Shown here piece by piece: positions 4,241 to 24,200 of a DNA stretch of 64,000 nucleotides. Positions within the stretch are counted from its first letter, which is position 1; each line of letters starts with the position of its first letter. The translations under genes and the position numbers were made by a program. Source of the DNA: Tetraselmis striata (taxonomy: Eukaryota; Chlorophyta; Chlorodendrophyceae; Chlorodendrales; Chlorodendraceae); contig VCJN01002489.1 of NCBI GenBank assembly GCA_006384855.1, forward strand, positions 186,001 to 250,000. Direction: 5' to 3'. Below the pieces are notes generated by a model. The model had not been told where the DNA came from, did no database searches, and worked only from the letters and a program-made list of their open reading frames with translations.

Positions 4241-7200
4241 GTAACACCCCACCTGCAAAGCGCGTTGCGCTGTCCCTGCTGGATGACGAGTGGGATGATT
4301 GGGCGCCGGAACCGGGCACCCTGCCGTATGACCTCTTCGGAGGGGAGTATGAGTCCGAGGAGGATGTGCGGCCGGCTGAGGCTGCTGGTGCTGTTGCTCA
4401 GGCGAATGCGCGCGAGCATGACCTGGACAGCCACAACATGGATGAGATCATATCGCTGTCTGGGCTGTCTGACTGCTTCGGCATGTCTGATGATGAGGCG
4501 GGTAGTGCCTCTGGTGGCATGGGCGGCTCTGCCCGTGTTGTAACCAAGTCTGATTCCGCTTACTTGCTTGATGCGGTTGCTCTTGCGAGTGCTGTTGTCG
4601 ATGCACGAGGGGCGTGCGTGCTGGGGCTGAATGATGATCTCGGAAGCTACCCGGACGTGTGGGTGAAGGACAGTGGGGCGTATCCGCATTTGGTGGCTGA
4701 CCATGACAGCTTCGTGGAGTATGAGCAGCTTGCACCACCGGTTGAGGTGGGGGGTATTTGCTGTCTGGCGGTGGGCCGGGGGACGGTCTGGATGGTTGTT
4801 CGAGCCGATGGCGGCGAAGTACGCAGTGTGCTTCGTGGGGTTCTGCATGTCCCGGACTTGCCGGGCAAAACAAAGCATGGCTACCGCAGGTTGTTTAGCC
4901 AGCGGTTGGCGCAGGAGCGTGGCGCTTCGTTTCATTACACGGCCAACGGGGACTCCATGGGCTTGCGCTCTGCTGGCCGTGATATGACGGTCCCTATCGG
5001 GCGCGCTCCGGGGAGCAACTTGTACGCTTTCCGCAGCAGAATACTTCGGAGCGGGCATGCGCCCAGCCCTGCGGATGTTGTTGCGCTGCAAGCTTGTGGG
5101 AAGTTGTCAAAGTTGTTGTGGCACAGACGTCTTGGCCATCTGCATGCTGCATGCATGGATCGTTTGCTTGCGGAGAGCGTCTCGGGGATCACGTTCGCGA
5201 AGGATGAGATACTGCCGTTTTGTGACTGTTGCGCGTTGGCGATGTCTCACGAACGGCCGCGGTCGCGCATTGCGTCAAAGCGTCCTACTGGGCCACTGCA
5301 GAAGTTTGGAGCTGACATCTGGGGGCCAGTGGGTGTGACGTCCGTTGGCGGGTTCCGTTACGTGTTTGGGATGACTGACTACTACTCGGCATACAGCTGG
5401 GTGGTGTTCATGAAGTCCAAGGATGAGGCTCCGAGGGCTCTGCTGTTGGTGGTGCGCGCTATCAAGCGCGTGCATCCCCGATTTGGATACGACAAGAGTA
5501 CAGCTCGCCTGAGATTGGACAACGACTCAGTCTTCCAAAGTGCGGATTTTCGATCTGCATGCGATGGCCTGCACTTCGTTCCTGAGTTTTCTGCGCCATA
5601 CTGCCAATAGCAGAATGGTCTGCAGGAGCGTATGTGGGTTACTCTGTCCGAGATGACGGTGGCTATGCTGCTACATGCTGGCCTGGGTCGTGAGTTATGG
5701 GCGCTGGCCTTCTGTGCCGCGACGCACATCCGCAACAATGTCTACAGTCGGGGTGTCGGTTCTGTTCCCTACCGGCGTCACACTGGCAAGACCCCAGATG
5801 TGGCTGGGTTGCGGGTGTTCGGCTGTCCAGCGTATGTGCACGTGGATGCCGGGAATAGGTGGAAGCTTGACGCCAAGGCCTTTCGCGGGGTCTTCGTTGG
5901 TTATGGGCAGGAATCTCACACCTACTTGGTGTGGAACCCAGCTACTCGCCGCGTGGTTGCAAGTCGGAATGTGATTTTTGATGAGGGTTGGCGTGATGCG
6001 GCTTCCAGCAGCAAGGGGGGCGGTGGGGGCGATGCTGCTGCAAGCCTTGAGATGTTCCCCCAATACCAGGCACTTCTCGATAACAGCGGGGTTGGCAGCA
6101 CGTCCGACGCATCACGGCTGCAAGAGATAACCGAGGCTCACCGGCGTGTCGTGGATGAAACGGACGACGTTGAGGAGGAGCTTGAGATTGATGAGGAGCC
6201 ACTGACTGCAGAGGAACTGGAACTTAGACCGCAGCGACCCACGCTGGAGCTGACCCAGTTGGAGACGAACGAGGGAACCGACGATGGCGGGCAAGAGGAA
6301 CCTATAGTCCAGCGTGCTGAGAGGGACCCCTACCCTGCTCGTTCTCGCCGAGCTCCTGGGCAATGGTGGGTCGTGCATCCGGAAAACCCCAACGACGACG
6401 CTGCAGCTATGATGGCCGCCGCATTCGCGGCAGTGACACAGGGTGTCGATGAGCCCATCACGCTCAAGCAGGCCCTGTCCGGACCGTTCAAGGAGCAATG
6501 GGCGCAAGCCGTAGAGTCAGAATTAAACTCGTTGGAGAAGCAGGGCACGTGGGTGGTGTGCGAGTTACCAGAGGAGCGAACAGCCATTCCCAGCAAATGG
6601 GTATTCAAGGTCAAATACAACGCTGATGGCAGTATCGCACGCTTCAAGGCCCGACTGGTTGTCCAAGGCTGCCGTCAACGACATGGCATCGACTATGCAG
6701 AGACTTTTGCACCGACCGTGAAGTTCACCACTATCCGAGTGCTGTTTGCGATTGCAGTACAATACGGTTGGAATATCCATCAGGTTGATGTCGACACGGC
6801 GTTCCTGTATGCTCCAGTGGAGGAAGAGATCTACATGAGGCCGCCGCCTGGCTATGAGCAGTACGATGCAAGAGGGCGGCCCATGGTCTTGCGCTTGTTG
6901 AAGAGCCTGTACGGGCTGAAGCAATCACCCCGAAATTGGCACAACACCTTGCATAAGTTCTTGGTGTGCTACGGGTTTCAGCAGCTCAAGTCCGACCCTG
7001 GCGCGTACGTGTACTGGCAGGGTGGGCAGTTGATCTGCATCCTGGTGGTTTACGTGGACGACATGATCTTTGCCTTCAAGGACGCAGTATGGGGCGCGGA
7101 TTTCAAGACGGCATTAGGCGCCCGCTTTGACATCAAGGACTTGGGCGTCTGTGCCTGGGCGCTAGGCATGGCGGTGGAGCGAGACTGGGACAATGCGACG

Positions 7201-8083
7201 CTGAAGGTGCATCAGGCCAAGTACATTGATGACATGGTGCACAAGTTCAACCTTGCTGACGCTTACGCTGTGAGCACCCCAGCGGAGGTTGGTGCCGATG
7301 TCCCCGGTAGCCACAAGCCGTTGGCTGCTGAGATGCCATATCAGGCCCTTGTGGGCAGCCTGCTGTACGCGATGGTGGCTACCCGCCCCGATATTGCCGA
7401 AGTTGTGAGCAAGTTGTGCAGGGTGATGGCCAAGCCTGAAGAGCGCCACTGGCAGGCTGCCAAGCGAGTCCTGCGATACCTGAAGGGTACCAAAACCCTG
7501 GGGCTGACCTTCAGTGGGGGCAAGGCTGACGGCCTATTGCACGGGTACTGCGACGCCGACTGGGCTGGAGACGTGGTGTCACGACGCTCCACCACTGGCT
7601 TCGTCTTCATGCTTTGTGGAGCTGCAGTGAGTTGGAAGTCGCAGCTGCAGGCCACTGTGGCGCTGTCAACGGCGGAGCTGGGGACGTGGTGTCACGACGC
7701 TCCACCACTGGCTTCGTCTTCATGCTTTGTGGAGCTGCAGTGAGTTGGAAGTCGCAGCTGCAGGCCACATGGCGTTGTGTGCTGCTGTGTGCGAGGCGAT
7801 GTTCTTGCCCGAGCTGCTCCGCGAGCTGTGTTGTCCTCAGTCCGAGGCCACAGTGATCTTCGAGGACAACCAGAGCTGCATTGCGCTGACGCGCAACCCC
7901 ATGACCCATGGTCGCAGCAAGCACATCGCCATCAAGTACCACTTCACACGGGAGAAGGTGCTCAGCGGGGAGGTGGCAATTGAGTACTGCCCGACTGCAC
8001 AGATGGTTGCGGATGCACTCACCAAGCCTCTGGGAAGGCTGAAGCACGCGGAGTTCGCCCTGAAGATGTTTGGCGCGTTATGA
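4234..8083 (+). pseudogene. pol: copia Pol (protease-integrase-RT-RNase H), disrupted
   Basis: Protease active site DSGA lies in VWVKDSGAYPHL (about 4660-4695). The gag-pre-integrase zinc site (HRRLGHLH...CDCC) is at about 5116-5232. The integrase core has Asp in ADIWGP, Asp in RLDNDS and Glu in QNGLQER. TAG at 5608-5610 interrupts it where relatives usually have Gln. RT carries YVDD at 7051-7062 with intact fingers and palm sequence before it. RNase H begins YCDADWAG (about 7545), then a 113-bp direct duplication (offset 7570 to 7683) shifts the frame. The rest (MALCAAVCEAMFLPELL to the ADALTKPL motif) continues in another frame and ends at 8083. All enzymes of the cycle are recognisable but one continuous polyprotein cannot be made. 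Confidence 0.93.
7570..7768 (+). repeat. 113-bp tandem duplication in copia RNase H
   Basis: About 86 bp starting GACGTGGTGTCACGACG at 7570 recurs at 7683, giving a 113-bp period. Because 113 is not a multiple of three, the second copy shifts frame, ending the upstream ORF at 7743. The duplication falls just after the STAE segment of RNase H. Confidence 0.9.
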
Positions 8084-8597: not shown

Positions 8598-9097
8598 GGA
8601 ATACATTCTTCGAATTTACCAGCACTGTTCCCCACAAGTATTGCAAACAGTGTATCGCCCGACCCGCGGGCTTGGTACAGGCACGAGATGAAGTCATCAT
8701 GCCATTAAACGCAGTATAATGTGGGAAAAAAATCAGAGATGGAGGGCATTGTAGCCCCCACCCCCCCCAAGCTAGCCGGCTCAGCGGTACATAAATAATG
8801 CGCACAATGCAGCTATTCCAGTCAGCTCCCCTCCTCCATCACACCTCAGTAGCAGCAGGCGGGACGCCCCTGGCTGCCTTAGCGTGCCTGCTGAGCTATG
8901 GACGGGATGGGTCTGACTTAGGTAGGGACAGCAAGGGGCGCTGCTGTCTTAGCTATAGCCCACTGGAGGGAGGAGGGGCTAGGAAACATAAGAGGATGGC
9001 CGATAGCTTGAACTGTGATAACACGTCGTGCTCCCCAGTGTGGTTAGAGATAGCAGGTCCTAAGAACAACTCAATCTGAGCGAGTGGATGCAGCAGA
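8598..9097. other. no gene seen between copia element and 9.1-kb gene
   Basis: Only short ORFs in all frames and a C-rich run at about 8757-8768. No conserved coding signal, tRNA or repeat edge was recognised. Confidence 0.5.
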
Positions 9098-14640: not shown

Positions 14641-14650
14641 TTTATGGGGT

Positions 14651-14822
14651 TTCCTCCTTTCCGAGCCGCTTTTCCGGCTACCGCTGCTGCTAATAAGTGG
14701 TACGGGCTACTGGTTCATCCGTTATTTGCCGCGCTCGTGTGTGTGTAGCACGAGTAGACATAAAAGAAGCCGGAAAAACAAAGCCTGTCAACTTCCAGTT
14801 TCGTTGTGTCACGCACATAGCG
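14651..14822 (+). repeat. repeat X, copy 1 (5' of recombinase)
   Basis: Starts with cctcctttccgagccgcttt, contains agtggta and a gcacgagtagacataaaag block, and ends with the ttccagtttcg block. About 170 bp. Matches X2 downstream of the recombinase in the same orientation, and inverted copies at 33.8 kb and 62.1 kb. Confidence 0.8.
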
Positions 14823-15286
14823 ATTAGTTGTCTCGTAACATGTTGCAAGGTCACATGTTGTGTCAAGATGACACCCGGCTCACCATCCGCGTGTGTATAA
14901 TTCTCATCCGTACGTCCGTCCGTCACTCACCATGCCACACGGCGAAGAGCCCGTCGCCGAGTCGACACCGAATCGCTGCATGCAGACATGCATGCCCAGT
15001 CTACATTGCTGCTCGAGCTTACATATCGCCGTTGGCCCAATTGACGGCTCGTGAAAGTGGTGTTGATGCAGGTGGAGCAATGGCTCTGGCTTCGGGCAGC
15101 GCGTCGCGGGACAACCGATAGGAAGCGGGGGAGCCGCGTTGCGCCCCGATTTGCTAGAGCCAGCCCCAAGCGGCCGTGTCCGAGAACATTAGCCCGGTGG
15201 AGGCGACCACTGCCACTGTCGTCCGGTACGTCGCTTGGATTGGTGAGCGGGCCACATAGGGGCTAAGTCGTTACAACCCTACATGT

Positions 15287-16202
15287 CAGCAATCAACACG
15301 TTCTTTGAATTGCGCCACATCGACTAAATCGCAAAGGACAACATGCACCTCGCCGGCGCGCGGCGTGGCGTGCTGCTAAGGCAACACAACATGGAGGCCG
15401 CCCCTTCGCGAGTCCCGTTACGTGCTGATGTCGCTTACGCTTTCGTCGAGCGGGCCGAATTGATTGTGTCTCCCCCCCCCCCCCCCCCCCCCCCACCCCC
15501 GAGTACCAGTACGAGTTCCGGGCCCTCATGGCCGCGGTTGTCAATTTCTTTGCCAGGGGACTTACTGGCGTGTCTTGCCGAGTGCGGGACGTCCATGTCA
15601 GCTCCTACAACATCACCATGCAGGTGCACCGTGAGAAGGGGCGTGCCGGACGGCGCGGCCCCAACGACCTACGTGTGCTACTCCTTCCCGTGTCGGAGCA
15701 CCCCCACGTCGCCCGTCTCGTGCACCACTTAATCGACAACGTCCAGTCTGCCCCCCTGGTCCCTCCTGCCTTGGCCGAGACAAACTTCTGGGCGGCCTCC
15801 CCGAGCGAGCAGTCAAAATCTTGGACTGCCGCTACAATGTCGGAGTGGTTATGTACGACCGTTCGTCTCGTGGGTGCTGCCCCTCCCGCGGGCACTTCCT
15901 GGAGGTCTCACACTCTTCGCAAGGGTGCAGCCTTTGCTGCTAACGCCATCGGAGTTCCGCTGTCCCACAGCAGTCGCCACCAAGGCGGCTGGGCCACGAA
16001 CTTCGACGTCGTTCTGTACTACATCGACTCCAACGTCCTCCCTTCACCTAGCGCGTGGTTCTTCTTTGGTCACTTCGCGCCCCTTCACCACTTGCAAGTT
16101 CAACAAGACTCCGCATGCAATGGCCTTCCGGGTGCCCCCTTCGTGACCAGGCGCTACCAATGCTTCATCAATCTACCGATCTCCTCGTTCGCTCATCACT
16201 AG
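15287..16202 (+). pseudogene. DIRS tyrosine recombinase, frameshifted (copy 1)
   Basis: The core-binding part (SAINTFFELRHID, about 15287) hits a TAA. The next frame (ADVAYAFVERAELIV) runs into a C23 run at 15472-15494, after which the protein resumes in another frame (EYQYEFRALMAAVVNFFARG). The catalytic domain is intact to the stop: the HxxR box in HTLRKGAAFAANAIG, His in RHQGGWA, and the candidate nucleophile Tyr in LYYIDSN. Compared with the copies at 31-33 kb and 62-64 kb, most of the N-terminus is deleted (between about 15100 and 15210). Function in relatives: integrates circular DIRS cDNA without target duplication. Confidence 0.8.
15472..15494 (+). repeat. C23 run inside recombinase coding sequence
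   Basis: 23 C, one A, then CCCCC. The paralogous copies at 31.8 kb and 63.0 kb have only 5-6 C at this place, encoding PPPEYRYD. The run is therefore an expansion that breaks the reading frame. Confidence 0.9.
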
Positions 16203-16236
16203 CAAAACCAGACTCAACTTGAAATGATATAAACTA

Positions 16237-16405
16237 GTTCATGGAGTTGCCTCCTTTCCGGACCGCTTTTCCGGCTGCCGTTACTTGCTGTTAAGTGGTA
16301 TTTGTTACTAGTCCACCCGTCGCTGCGCCCGTTTGTGTGCAGCACGAGTATAGACAGAAAAGCAGCCGTAATAGCTGCGCCTGCCATCTTCCAGTTTCGC
16401 TGTGT
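16237..16405 (+). repeat. repeat X, copy 2 (3' of recombinase)
   Basis: Direct repeat of X1 (cctcctttccggaccgcttt start, gcacgagtatagacagaaaag, ttccagtttcgctgtg end). It follows the recombinase stop by about 35 bp, so the recombinase is framed by X repeats. Confidence 0.8.
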
Positions 16406-16512
16406 TACAAAGCGCCCCCCTGATTCCGTTTTCCCTCCACGCTTTCACCAAACCTTCCTGCCCCAGCCATCGGCTCTTGCCTGCGCGAACGTTTTGGCAA
16501 AACCGTTTCAAA

Positions 16513-16542
<30 letters not shown>
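16513..16542. repeat. G30 homopolymer
   Basis: Uninterrupted G30 between repeats X2 and Y1, at the junction of the two halves of the DIRS-like composite. Confidence 0.95.
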
Positions 16543-16543
<1 letters not shown>

Positions 16544-16672
16544 GGGGGGCTTTGTGGTTTGCCGAAAACGAGCTTTGCCTTGGGTTACAGTGTTTTCTAA
16601 GGCGGGAGCCTGTCGGCAGCCCGCAAGAACAAAAATCACGAAGTGAGGGAGGGAGGGAGGGACGGACGCGGA

Positions 16673-16975
16673 CCATCACATGGTAGGTGGTGCGCGAAGA
16701 CAAAAGATAAGTACAGCAGATAGCCCGATAGTTTTTATAAGAATTCTACATCGAGTGGGGTCGACTCACAGCGTCGTGCTAGAGTTGACCGTGATCGTTT
16801 GTATAGCAATTTTCCTTAGCCAGATTTCGGGTGTTGAAGCACACTCGTACTAGCGTGTTTTTAGTATGATGTATAGCTGCGTGCGTTGCATGCGTGCCAC
16901 ATTGTGTAACGTGTACGCAGGCGAACGCGCGCAGCGCGCGCTAGGCGGAAGGAAACCCCAACTACTGGTGGTAAA
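16673..16975 (+). repeat. repeat Y, copy 1
   Basis: About 300 bp starting tcacatggtaggtgg and ending caactactggtggtaaa, sharing about 85-90 percent by eye with 20435-20735 in direct orientation. It includes the shared block agtttttataagaattct and a CpG-rich gcgcagcgcgcg motif. Confidence 0.85.
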
Positions 16976-17437
16976 AATTTCAAAGGAAGGGGGCTGTGTG
17001 GTTTGCCGAGCTCAATCTTGGGGCGGCACGACGCGGGAGGCCGCCGGCCGGCCCGATGTGGGGCAGGCGAGGGGCGCTCATAACGCCGGGGCTGGGCACC
17101 GGGCTCGGATTGGGAGCCGAAAGGCGACCACTAGCCACTTGGGAGGACCGACGCAAGCGCGCATGCCGATGAGCAGGCGGCTGGGGGCGAAGAGGTCCGG
17201 GGAGGGCGGGTAGACAATCACATCGGATGCCATTTCCGAGCGGCGCTGGTGCGAGCTGCGGTCGGGCCAGTAGGGCACGATGACGGTGGCCGCCGCGCCG
17301 GAGGTGTGGAGTTTGATGACGAGGTCATCGATGAGGCCCCAGGGAGGGTTGCACTAGTTGTGCTCACGACGCCACGCGCCATCGGAGAGGCGCAGGCTAT
17401 CGGTAGCCTCGCTGCAAGGGTCACGCCATAGGGAGTT

Positions 17438-18206
17438 AACAGTAATTTAACCTATTTTGCACCGAGGAATTCATTTTGCACCGTAGGGTTTGTTTATACC
17501 CTAGTTCCCGGGTCTACTATCAGTACTTAAGACTCACTGGTGATGTAGCTTGGGTTTGTAGACCTAGGGTGCAGTGTAGCATTCACCAGCGTGCAGGCCA
17601 GCCGCGACGTATATCCAATGTTGGTTTTGGAGGATTTTGTCCAAAATGGGACAAGATATGAGGCAAATCAATATTTATTATGATGATTACATCCATCGGC
17701 TAGCCACAAGACGTTGCTAATAGTTTATTCGTTGAGCATCCCCAACTCAAGCAAGTCCTTCTTCGTGGCTGCGTTAAACTTGACGACTCCGCCGGGTTTG
17801 CGTTGCGCTAGGGTGGTTGACATGACGTGGACGCAGTTGTTTCGTGGCGGGCTGATTTGCCACCCAGTCTGCGCATATGTCTTCACGACTTGGACGCTTT
17901 TACCGTACCACTTCTTTCTGACCATGGTGCCGTCCTCGTTGAACACCTCGCGACTTCCCGACGCGTCGTGGATGGCCTTCGCGTACGATAGGGGGACGGC
18001 TTCAACAAGCTTCCAAGGAAGCGTCAGGCGCTTCTCCCAGCTTGTGTCAACTGGCTTCTTCCCTCCTTTTGTCTGCGCGTACAACCATAGGGGCATGAGA
18101 GGTTTGCCCTTTGCATTGGCATGGAAGGGCTCGTATACGGCCACGGTCAACGTGTCTTCGGTAGTCTCGCGCGACTTCACAAGCCCGATGACGAATCTCG
18201 ACAGTT
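17438..18206 (-). mobile_element. 769-bp insertion with own ORF inside the DIRS polyprotein
   Basis: The DIRS protein breaks after the NARRPRYN segment and resumes at LWRDPC. Removing 17438-18206 rejoins them in frame as RYNSLWRDP, which fits the family pattern. AGTT (plus strand) stands at both edges, 17434-17437 and 18203-18206, consistent with a 4-bp target duplication. No terminal inverted repeats or LTRs are obvious. The left part has the short direct repeat ttttgcaccg (two copies). It carries a minus-strand ORF to 17725. Element class unknown. Confidence 0.6.
17725..18206 (-). CDS. unrecognised ORF carried by the insertion
   Basis: The open frame continues from DIRS sequence through the insertion edge and ends with TAA at 17725-17727. 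About 155 residues lie within the insert. They are basic and globular-looking (for example TLTVAVYEPFHANAKGKPLM, LTLPWKLVEAVPLSYAKAIH, FNEDGTMVRKKWYGKSVQVV). No catalytic signature was identified. It does not resemble the transposase, integrase or methyltransferase domains I know. The native start is unclear: no ATG lies close to the edge, so the first codons may come from read-through. Could be a cargo gene, a small transposase, or a captured host exon. Confidence 0.45.
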
Positions 18207-18964
18207 GTAGCGTGGGCGCCGCGCGTTTTCCATGGTAGGGAAGTGGTCGATGGTGTGATGCCCCGAGATGTTGTCGAGGTGGTTGAAGTGGCGCAAATTG
18301 AACGCCCAGTCGTCGTAGACGATCTCGCGGCTGAGGAGATCTGGCCATATGTTGGCCGTGGTCTGGATGCAACGCGCATGGATGGATGTCGTCGGATTCA
18401 AGGATGAATCACAGTTTTCGTAGCTCCGTCATAAGCAGAGGGGAGCGGGAGGTGAGGTTGGCGAGGATGTGGACCACCTCCGTGTCGACCTCGCTGCTCC
18501 GAGAGGAAGGTGAGCACGCGGCGTATCGGATAGCCTTAAGCTCCTTGTAAGTGATGCGCAGCTCGCGGTTGCCGTCGTACTAGAAACCGCACGCCTCCGT
18601 GGTCTCGTTGAAGATGGCACCCCACACACTCGTAGCCGGAGGTATACGACATACATGTAGGCCGTCTCCACGGGCATGTCGATGGAACGGCCGTTGCTGT
18701 GGTTGGGGACCGCCACCCACCTACCATGCGAGGTTGTGTCGCAGTCGGTGCGTCATCTTCACGCGCCCGCTCCACGAGTCGTTCGTGCGGAGCACGTCGT
18801 GCAGCTCGCGCAAGTAGAACCGTGCCTTCTTGATGGCGAGGAACAAGAACTGGGCACGACCTGTCACGGACGCAAGCTCCCGCCGCACATGAAGCCATCG
18901 TGCATCTCGCTTAGCACGGAGGATTAGGCCAAGGGCTATGGCAACGAGTGAATCGAGTTTCCGA

Positions 18965-19008
18965 GGGGGGAAGGGGGGGGGGGGGAGGGAGGGGGGGGGG
19001 GGGGGGGC
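18965..19008. repeat. interrupted G-tract cluster
   Basis: Runs of G6, G13, G3 and G17 separated by single or double A, lying inside the minus-strand RT gene, so C-rich on its coding strand. It falls between the RT and RNase H regions and interrupts the frame. Confidence 0.85.
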
Positions 19009-20434
19009 TCAAATCGTACCGTTTTGCGAGTCGAACTCCAAACCGAGATGCTCCAGTCGGTGTACCGGCCCACTAACCCTTGTCGGGATGCCGGCTGAGA
19101 CCTAACCTTCCGAGCAGGGAGGTGAGGCGGTCGCGCACAGCGTAGCCTTGCGCCCGGCTAGCGTAGACGCAAAGCACATGAAGTAGTCCATGTACGGGAG
19201 CATATGCGGCCGCCACGGAAGTGGCTGCGGAGCGCCTGACGTCGGCCCATGCTAAGCTTGTTGCAACCATTGGGAGATTATTGCGAAGTCGGGGCGCCGC
19301 AGATGGCGGATTGGCGGTTGAACGCAGCAGTGAGAGAGCAGAAGTAATATGGGCTCAGACTCCAGCCCATGGGGAGCCCCGCCAGCCGGTAGAGGTTGCC
19401 TCGGTGCGGTAGCATAGTCGCGGTCCTCGGGAGCAATGCCGACGGCGTACAAGCCGTCGCGTAGGTCCATGGAGAGCATGTAGTCACCTGGTCGGGCCAG
19501 GTGACGCAGTCGAGTGAGGGTCTCGAAACTCAGGTCCCGCTCCTCGCAGTACCCGTTGAGGGGTCGTAGGTCGATGATGAGCCGCCACTTACTGACACCC
19601 GGCTTAGGGATGAGGAGCACCCGAGAGACCCGCCGCGAGCAGTGGTCTTCCTCTCACGCTCTGCTAGCCAGGAAGCGAGCCAGCTCGCCGTCCACGAAGC
19701 GTAGTTGGTCGGGGGTGGCGTCCTCCATCGAGACTCCTTGGTGAAAGGGGGCGGGCGGCCCGTTCTTGAACGGGGTGCGCACGCCCTTGCGGATCATGTC
19801 GACGACCCTGCGTCCGTCGCCGATGTCCGCCCATGCTTGCCAGCTCATGTCGCAAGTAGTCATACTCAGGAGTGAACGAGTCGGCACGCGAGCCGGACGG
19901 AGTCCACATGCATGGCCGTGCGTCTGGCGCGTAGGTGTGCGTCCTCGATCGGGGGCGACACCGACCGCCCTAGGCCGCGTGCCCATCGCGTGTCGAGGCA
20001 CGAGTATCTGACCATAGGGAACAGCTCGTCCGGTCACGGTAGTCGAGTTGGCCACCGGCCGAACATGGAATCACTATCAGTTTCGGGGTAGGAGTTTGAA
20101 TCGGCCAGTTAGGCCGAGGCGCCGGGCAATCGGCGCCAATTTGGAGCGTGCCATGAAGGCGAGGGCACGCAGATGGGGCCACCAGTACCACCAACCCGCG
20201 CAACATGCGCCGTCGGGATGGGGGGCTCGACGAGAAGGGGCGGGGCACGGTGTCTTTCGAAGGTGCGATCTACAGTCGATATATAGTTGTCAGCATGCCG
20301 GCAATAATCGCCTATTCGCACCCAAGAAGACGGTACCGGCGGTCGGAGGACGGCGGGTCTTCACACGCGGGTCGGGCGTGCGGAAAAGCCATAGCGTCTT
20401 GCACCGGACGAACCCGTGAGCATCGAGGATGCCA

Positions 20435-20735
20435 GTCACATGGTAGGTGGGGCGCGAAGACGGAAGATGGGGACAGCAGATTGCCCGCTAGTTTTTATAA
20501 GAATTCTTCATCGAGTGGGGTCAACTCACAGCGTGGTGCCGGACTTGACCGTGCTCGTTTGTACAACAGTTTCTCTCAGTCAGATTTCGGGTGTTGCAGC
20601 ACACTCGTACTACCGTGTTTTTACTACGATGGATATAGCTGCGTGCGTTGCATGCGTGCCACATTGTGTATCGTGTACGCAAGCACACGCGCGCAGCGCG
20701 CGCCAGGCGGTAGAAACCCCAACTACTGGTAGTAA
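20435..20735 (+). repeat. repeat Y, copy 2
   Basis: Direct repeat of 16673-16975. Together they bracket the minus-strand RT gene (about 4.06 kb outer span). The right end lies about 480 bp upstream of the PKD2 start codon. Confidence 0.85.
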
Positions 20736-21220: not shown

Positions 21221-24200
21221 ATGAGCATGGGGAAGAAGCTGGCGGGGGGCGGCGAGGAGGAGGACTCGACGCTGATTGCGGCGGGGGGGCAGAGCTCCGC
21301 CCCCGACCAGTCAGGTAATGCTGCCACCACAAAGGGCAAAAAAACCGCCAAGAAGAAGAACAGGTTTCAGGAGACATGGGCCAAGTGGGTGGCAGTGCGC
21401 GAGCTTTCGCTGTACTCCCTCTTCGTGCTCCTCTTCACGCTGGCCGTCTTCAATGCCAAGCCTGGCTGGATTCAGTTTGAGCTGCAGAAGCTGCACAAGG
21501 CAAGCCTGGGCGGGGGGATCACCGCCGTCGCCAACATCAACCAGATATACACCTGGCTGGGGAGTACCTTCGCGGACAGCTTCTTCCCAATGTACGATGC
21601 CAAGGGGGAACTCCTCAGCGCCGGCGACCGCCTGCGAGTGAGCGGCCAATCGCTTGTCATTGGTGCTGCGCGCCTGCGATCTGTGAGGGCGTCGCAGCGC
21701 GAGTGCCTCATCCCCAACTTCCTCAAGGACATCAACGGACAGCAAGGCTTTGTGCTCAGACAGCTACAGCTCGCACACCCGGTTGACTACCAACATCTAC
21801 GCTGCCAACTCTAGCCACATGCCCGACCTGGCCGGCGCCAACTTCACCCTCCCGTGCGCACCCACCGCCCACCACACAACTGTCGATGCTCCACCTTGGA
21901 TCACCACTGATGTTGCCTCGTATGCCTGAGTGCTACCGTACTCTGCTCCTCGTTCCCGCTGCCTGATGCCGCGGATGCCGCGCCCCTCCCAGGTTCAAGT
22001 ACCGCACAGCCACGGAGCTGGACAGCACGATGCTGTATACCATGCAGGGAGTGTATGCCAAGTACTTCCAGGTGCGCCCAGCTGACCCCAACGGGCCTTA
22101 CTGTGGATCTTCATTTCAGGCGCAGGCTTGGGTAGTGGCGGCACTTTCATCTCATTGTGTTGCTGGGAGGGGTGCCACCTTTGTCCGCTCGGTGGTGCGC
22201 TAGCCCGTCCGAGTGAAGTTGGCCTGTGCCGGTGCGCAGGACGGCTTCGCTCTGGACGTGATTCCCAATGTGGCGCCCAACCAGCTGGCATCGTACGTGG
22301 CGTCATGCCTCCCAAACCTTGCGGACAGCCTGGAGACGTGCAAGAACAACCTGCTGGCGGATGGCACGCTGCAGCTCACAGACTTCGGATTCAACGGCGA
22401 CGACGGCACTGTGGGCGGTGACAGCGAGTACAACGCCAAGTTCTTCCAGGTGCGCCGGCCGCCGCGGGCTGGCGCGGAGGGGCAGCGCTGCGTGAGCGAG
22501 TTTGACCTCGAGGGCAACACGTGCGCGGACATGGAGCAGCTCTTTGTGCCGGAGGCGCTGGTGCCGCACCTGCACCGCTGCCAGCGCGTGCCGGACACCG
22601 CCGGCACCTGCCAGCTGCCGTACGTCGGCTTTGCGCAGCTGTACGAGCTGCACAAGCCCAGCCGATGCGGCGCCTGCCTCTGCATGTGTGACACAGACCC
22701 GGTGTGCGCGTCCTCCTGCAGCGCCAAGGACGTGTTCCTCGACCAGCTGGGGTGAGCCCTCCCCCCCCCATCCAAACCATTAAGGTATTGCAAGGATTCC
22801 CTCACCAGAATGTGACCAATATCTTGCCCGACAGCGCAGCTGCAGTGATATGAAGCGCACATCCACCGCCAAGCTGCTGCTGATTTAAAGGAAGAGCAAT
22901 TTCAATGATTTAAAATGATTATATTCGAGCTGCTGATCTCAGAGACCCGGGTAATGCATATTTTGATTCATTACAACGAGGACTATATGTCTTTCTGTCT
23001 CGTGTAAAATTCAATGGAACCATTAAATATGCTCGTCAATTAATTCTCCACCGGCAACTTTCAGTAAACATGGCAGTAGCAAGTTGGCCAAGTTAGAGTT
23101 TATAACCTGGAGATAGCAGTCAAATAGAAGAGAAACTGAGCTGTTTATTTTATATTAATAGTAAGAATTCTTCAATATAGATAGAAGATGTTGATGCGCA
23201 AAGCGCTGTGCAGCATTCGGATGCTGCTGGAGTACGCCCCTGCCTGCAGGAATGACTGACGCGCCCCCCCGCGGTGCCTCCTCCTGCCAGGATGCTCAAG
23301 TACTTCAACTGGGTGAATGCGTCCACCACGCGGGCCGTCATGCTGGACGTGAGCATGCTGAACCCGCACCAGAACCTGATGACCATGTGGCGCGGCGTGT
23401 TTGAGATGCCGCCCACGGGGCAGATCCAGCCGTACGTCACCTCCGACACCGTCAAACTGTATAGGTGAGCCCTCGGGGCGGCAGGGCCGCCATGTGGAGC
23501 GCCTTTTCACCCGGACAAGCAGTGAACGCTGCCATGTGTGCCCCTTTTGCATGCTGCCATCATATCAAGCAAAGTGTTGCTGAGAGGCGCAATTACCGTA
23601 GGCTTAACACCGGTCCGCGGGCCTTCAAATGATCCATTGTTTTGTAGCTTCGCATCGGGGGAGGGGGTCAGAACGTTGTATATCCGTGGACCGTTTGTAT
23701 TCGTTATACGTCGGGTCATGACGTGCTGCGCTGACCATGGTGCGCGGCGGCTGCAGGTACACCTCCTTTGTGGACCGAGTGTACCTAGGCGGGGAGATTG
23801 TGCTGCTGGCGCTGCTGGCCTACTACATCCTGGCGGAGATCTTGGAGATGCGGAAGGAGGGGAGGGTGTACTTCAAGGATGTGCGAGACCCCCCCCCCAC
23901 CCTCCTTTCCCCCTCCGTTCACCCCTGCACTGGCCCATCCCGGCGGAGTCAATCGCCACCGCGCTGACTTAGGCTCCCCGCCTGGCTGCCCCCACAGGCC
24001 TGGAACTACGTAGACTGGGCCAACTATGTTCTGATCCTGGCCGTGGTCGGTATACGCGTGGCCAGCATCATCGTCATCAACAACTTCACGGTGGAGAGCG
24101 CCCTCACGCCGCTCTACGTCGACTACCCCCCGCTGGCAGAGTTTGCCACCACGGTGAGGATGCGGCACTGCTCTGTGGTCAGATACATGGCAAGATTTCC

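Follow-up and report, generated by a model that had tools for sequence, protein, structure and literature searches.

The polyprotein of a DIRS-like element in the window (the whole stretch of DNA analysed here, 64,000 nucleotides) is split by a short segment that has AGTT at both edges. This raises the questions of what the segment is and how it came to lie there. An earlier note, made from the sequence alone, had suggested either a small undescribed mobile element or a captured piece of a gene. The features on which our answer rests are collected in Table 1; other copies are referred to by locus labels (L or C with a number).

Table 1. Positions of the insert, its borders and its host element in the window
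Feature	Position	Strand	Basis
Host DIRS element	14641..20720		Split direct repeats and relatives
Target-site duplication (TSD), first AGTT	17434..17437		Single 4-mer here in five DIRS relatives; family TSD of 4 bp
3' terminal piece of a terminal inverted repeat (TIR) DNA transposon, 765 bp	17438..18202	sense minus	96-97% identity to 39 copies
Right-end TIR, AACAGTAATTTAACCTATTTTGCACCG	17438..17464		Counterpart of the left TIR in 17 copies
3' non-coding part of the transposon	17438..17724	-	Sequence reading
Last exon of the DUF7869 gene, 158 codons and stop, 5'-truncated	17725..18201	-	Alignment with other copies
TSD, second AGTT	18203..18206		Window sequence and five DIRS relatives

We searched the genome with one DIRS flank, scored 40 places of 520 candidates, and read the best five besides the window (L046-L050). 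The site is uninterrupted in all five, and each has a single 4-mer there: AGTT in L047, AATT in L046, L049 and L050, and ATTT in L048. In the window, the DIRS frame on the minus strand runs as ...RRPRY up to 18207 and resumes with NSLWRDPC from 17437, so that leaving out 17438-18206 joins PRY directly to NSLWRDP; other stops are present nearby in this DIRS copy. Because the relatives are uninterrupted with one 4-mer each and the DIRS frame rejoins without the insert, 17438-18202 (765 bp, or 769 bp if one AGTT is counted in) is a genuine insertion with a 4-bp duplication in a DIRS-like element. The claims of the earlier note that a DIRS polyprotein is split between two AGTT copies, and that excising 17438-18206 restores its reading frame, are thus both borne out. 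Intact DIRS copies carrying the segment, or invariant flanks, would speak instead for a normal part of the DIRS element; the five relatives read all lack it, and the flanks of its other copies vary and are unrelated. With nothing in its favour, this reading is refuted.

The host has two pairs of split direct repeats (14641-14812 and 16238-16408; 16676-16958 and 20436-20720), from which we take it to be PAT-like. The Pfam match of the host to RVT_1 is weak (E 0.096). A polycystin-like gene part adjoins the DIRS element at 21221-21814 on the plus strand (Polycystin_dom, E 9.9e-6), and part of a Copia-type polyprotein lies at 5632-7743, also on the plus strand, open for 703 codons (RVT_2, E 5.6e-68; retroviral SH3-like domain, E 6.3e-26). 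The window also holds runs of at least 15 C or at least 12 G, up to 31 bases long, at 15472-15494, 16513-16542, 18973-19007 and about 20 more places.

Next, the insert itself was compared with the genome, and 40 matches of 446 candidates were scored, the window included. Among these best matches, all 39 other copies end at query base 765 and never at 769; the flanks therefore vary among copies. Towards 17438, the copies all run out at AACAGT, or ATCAGT for L009, and the sequence beyond is unrelated, except that L014 and L026 have one common flank and look like a duplicated locus. At 18202, where the window copy stops, all 39 continue. Outer flanks were retrieved on both sides for 18 copies, and both TIRs were found in 17 of them, C1496 being without the left one. 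The left TIR reads AACAGTAATGCAACCTATTTTGCmCCG (17 copies, with GT for GC in one) and the right TIR AACAGTAATTTAACCTATTTTGCrCCG; both have single-base variants, and the repeat is imperfect and about 27 bp long. The far end of C2384, AACAGTAATGCAACCTATTTTGCCCCG, is the inverted partner of the window end, and TGAA lies outside both ends of that copy. The earlier note had expected a mobile element to recur with differing flanks and 4-bp duplications, and it does: the outer 4-mers are identical in 12 of the 17 copies (11 of 16 loci if the duplicated C483 and C613 are counted once). The five without a matching 4-mer (C226, C809, C436, whose ends are 15.8 kb apart, C2449 and C58) could reflect recombination between copies or mis-paired ends. 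The TSD 4-mers vary between copies, and therefore there is no fixed target word.

Full copies thus have TIRs at both ends and a TSD of fixed 4-bp length, as in class II elements, and 17438-18202 is almost certainly the terminal piece of a TIR DNA transposon. The earlier statement that the segment has no TIR was half correct: one TIR is present, and its partner is missing while the TSD is intact on both sides. Likewise, the segment is indeed a mobile-element insertion with AGTT as its TSD, although it is the end of a transposon of about 12.5 kb rather than a small element in its own right.

Non-LTR retrotransposons have no TIR, a fixed 3' end and ragged 5' ends, and a 5'-truncated LINE insertion shows one fixed end, one ragged end and a TSD. 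The window copy has just these three features and is shorter than the others, and from the first 40 matches, in which one end is fixed, we had considered a LINE. The left TIR ruled it out: the fuller copies are a DNA transposon with a matching TIR at the other end, the spacing of the ends is clustered, introns are kept and a left-only remnant (C407) exists. The paired TIRs refute a 5'-truncated non-LTR element, which we regard as extremely improbable.

The genome contains 210 exact matches to the right-end pattern (0 to its reversed-pattern control) and 515 matches to the left-end pattern with up to two mismatches; right ends are included in the latter number, as the two patterns differ at two bases. 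Pairing 100 listed right ends with 69 of 100 listed left ends in the same contig range gave 22 pairs among the matches listed, of which 16 are spaced 11.9-12.8 kb apart and the remaining six 7.3, 10.6, 18.6, 20.2, 23.9 and 28.0 kb. The 78 right ends left unpaired are not thereby truncated, as left ends with mismatches were absent from the listing. The full element is about 12.5 kb long, abundant and of the cut-and-paste kind, and copies with both ends are present. Thirteen of the 39 copies, which are best-scoring matches and not a random sample, differ from the majority at no more than two of about 770 columns, and this near-identity suggests recent activity. Against the majority sequence of the other 39 copies, the one in the window has 24 differing sites and 6 gap columns, and it is therefore probably older than the many near-identical copies.

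We also analyzed the interior of the copies. Six of them (L014, L026, L042, L053, L069 and L092) have one foreign border in common, ending in GAATCTCACAGTG or a close variant; we read their apparent truncations as a nested element starting CACTGTGAGATTC and not as ragged ends. This second repeat interrupts several copies at different points and looks like a CACTG-ended transposon, presumably EnSpm-like. Another repeat border recurs at L041 position 8374 in nine copies (L052, L055, L062, L066-L068, L096, L101 and L108); the outer flanks of the nine differ, and the six that were read contain the motif GGTTCGATTC, which we take to be a tRNA B-box. We read this as a nested SINE-like insert that seems to have spread along with its host transposon. 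A 24-bp unit, GATGACAGACCGTTTCGTCCCACT, is repeated in arrays at L041 3029-3514 and 6335-6922 and also in L087; these arrays vary in length among copies. The C2384 copy, 9.8 kb long, holds two such arrays and is without the stretch between arrays that C2449 has.

The insert's open reading frame, which the earlier note had put at about 155 residues ending at 17725, is real: it runs on the minus strand for 158 residues from 18201 to a stop at 17725-17727. In line with the note, which knew no family for it, a Pfam search with it matched none. It is not a captured gene piece, however, but the last exon of the transposon's own DUF7869 gene. In C2384, oriented like the window's minus strand, a DUF7869 exon lies outward (upstream) of this last exon, and the domain scores 129.4 bits against a cut-off of 26 (E 1.6e-37). 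L041 has GT-AG introns at 7599-7677 and 8656-8803. Other copies align through both, and this retention of introns disfavours spread by way of spliced RNA. A genome search for DUF7869 scored 150 of 548 candidates; all 150 lie above the cut-off, and 13 have a listed stop. DUF7869 was found in none of 14 control genomes; in viral contigs, six pattern matches were obtained and none confirmed, and a degenerate motif gave 0; phages gave no match. Neither DUF7869 nor DUF7869-like motif strings were found in the literature searched, outside which most subscription papers lie. In the PDB the best sequence match was a tail tube protein (E 0.04), not a convincing relative.

The translation carries the motifs EIDSMD, QMDN and GHTHERVDQ, each containing D, as expected of a DDD/E nuclease; transposases of the DDD/E type have an RNase H-like fold. 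Since DUF7869 is the only domain recognised in the scanned pieces, is open in most copies scored and has these motifs, we infer from sequence that it is a candidate transposase or catalytic domain. Several long reading frames lie on the opposite strand, at L041 838-6333 (minus). The six compared with Pfam gave no match above chance (best E 0.18), and a PDB search with the largest found nothing at E up to 1. These frames could belong to a single intron-containing accessory gene or to several such genes.

How, then, did the window copy come to have only one end? The TSD, the empty sites and the structure of the family indicate that the DIRS polyprotein was entered at AGTT by a transposon of about 12.5 kb whose imperfect TIRs are 27 bp long and whose TSD is 4 bp. 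We infer that this copy would later have been excised by flush cleavage at its ends, leaving a copy of the TSD on each side of the gap. Gap repair from the 17438 side would then have copied 765 bp from a sister or homologous copy and stopped, after which the new end would have been joined to the opposite side of the gap, where AGTT was still in place. Such a product would retain a single TIR and a last exon cut short, with the TSD preserved at either edge. As a whole, this chain of insertion, excision and one-sided, interrupted gap repair is the reading we favour, and it is probable though well short of certain.

The usual product of abortive gap repair keeps both ends and has an internal deletion, and the window copy departs from it in keeping one end only. 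Excerpts of a study of such events attribute deletion derivatives of Ac/Ds and PIF/Harbinger to abortive gap repair (PMC2213677). As far as these excerpts go, those derivatives are like the window copy in being non-autonomous remnants of a full copy with the TSD kept.

We therefore looked for remnants of the same form at other loci, reading 39 of the 46 listed right ends without a listed DUF7869 match. In 16 of the 39, the sequence read ended before an inner border was reached. Among the other 23 (20 distinct outer flanks), the outer 4-mer was found at or within 4 bases of the inner border in none. Nine of the 23 borders are the common SINE-like border and several others the CACTG-ended one; few are therefore real tests of a truncated end, since most look like nested insertions. 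Of the 47 unpaired left ends, 20 were read, three of them with one common flank. One, C407, is a left-only remnant in another DIRS element, with 91 matched bases plus one; GTGC lies outside it and CTGC at its inner border (three of four TSD bases), most empty sites have GTGC, and, of the 60 bases fetched from its outer flank, roughly positions 4-40 aligned to DIRS copies. In C237, TTTT stands at either side only after a shift of the border by about two bases, which is weak, and none of the remaining left ends of the 20 read is a one-sided remnant with a TSD. Thus, the signature of abortive gap repair, a kept TSD with sequence lost inward, fits the window copy, is approached in C407 with three of four bases, and is seen at none of the 23 other borders. 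C407 shows that either end may be retained, and it supports one-sided gap repair. Among the ends read, one-sided remnants occur for both ends of the transposon, though uncommonly, and the form with one TIR and an exact TSD is rare.

The exact TSD beside an end that is not a TIR is also what one-ended transposition would leave, in which one TIR and an arbitrary internal site are used and a fresh 4-bp TSD arises at integration. However, the inner end (GTCGAGATT, read inward) is unlike the TIR, and internal ends are not used recurrently, given the absence of the outer 4-mer at the 23 other inner borders; we consider such an event unlikely. It is equally doubtful that a later chance deletion removed the part from the last exon through the left TIR of a full-length copy. 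Internally deleted copies do occur (L011; L054/L103 and L060/L098, each pair being one locus; and C2384 as compared with C2449), but the deletion would have had to stop exactly at the border between element and TSD, and no microhomology is seen at the C/AGTT border. Interrupted gap repair remains our preferred origin for the window copy.

Finally, we compared the transposon with described families, as far as excerpts of the sources allow. Sola elements have a DDD transposase, a 4-bp TSD, TIRs of 11-1124 bp and lengths of mostly 2-9 kb, some above 15 kb (PMC10741241). On that partial account, the Tetraselmis transposon shares the 4-bp TSD, has three D motifs where Sola has DDD, and lies within the Sola range of size and TIR length, with 11.9-12.8 kb in 16 of 22 pairs and a TIR of about 27 bp. 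The Ectocarpus element Sola1-1_Ec32 is described in excerpts as a Sola-1 element of 21.5 kb with a gene on the strand opposite the transposase, and Ectocarpus giant families have nested elements fixed in many copies (PMC12477816). An opposite-strand gene would also be present in the Tetraselmis transposon, some Sola elements likewise exceed 10 kb, and the nested insert in many copies recalls those of the L052 type here. In contrast to what those excerpts give for Sola1-1_Ec32, no ParB or methyltransferase was found by Pfam among the six opposite-strand reading frames tested, and the 24-bp tandem arrays inside the Tetraselmis transposon set it apart from Sola. Members of the CMC/Transib clade are characterized, in the excerpt available, by a C(2)C/H(3-4)H motif (PMC12730594); by eye, neither C(2)C nor H(3-4)H is present in DNTVREN...GHTHERVDQ, the interval presumed to separate the second acidic residue from the third, if GHTHERVD holds the latter. 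The transposon may work like Sola, with which it agrees in TSD length, size and TIR, and we do not file it as Sola. A more tentative possibility, which we rate as rather unlikely, is that proteins with DUF7869 serve as transposases in an undescribed superfamily of their own, one of giant eukaryotic TIR transposons with a 4-bp TSD.

The insert is what remains, with one end only, of a large and abundant TIR transposon, and the surprise in this is modest. What had been an unexplained insert can now be assigned to an element whose two ends and TSD are defined and which has a candidate transposase, and DUF7869 gains a concrete, testable role; of these results, the most useful is that this domain is linked to a mobile element of defined ends. 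If the proposal of a separate superfamily were true, a Pfam domain of unknown function would become a new class of DDD-type transposase, accompanied by a further set of genes on the opposite strand.
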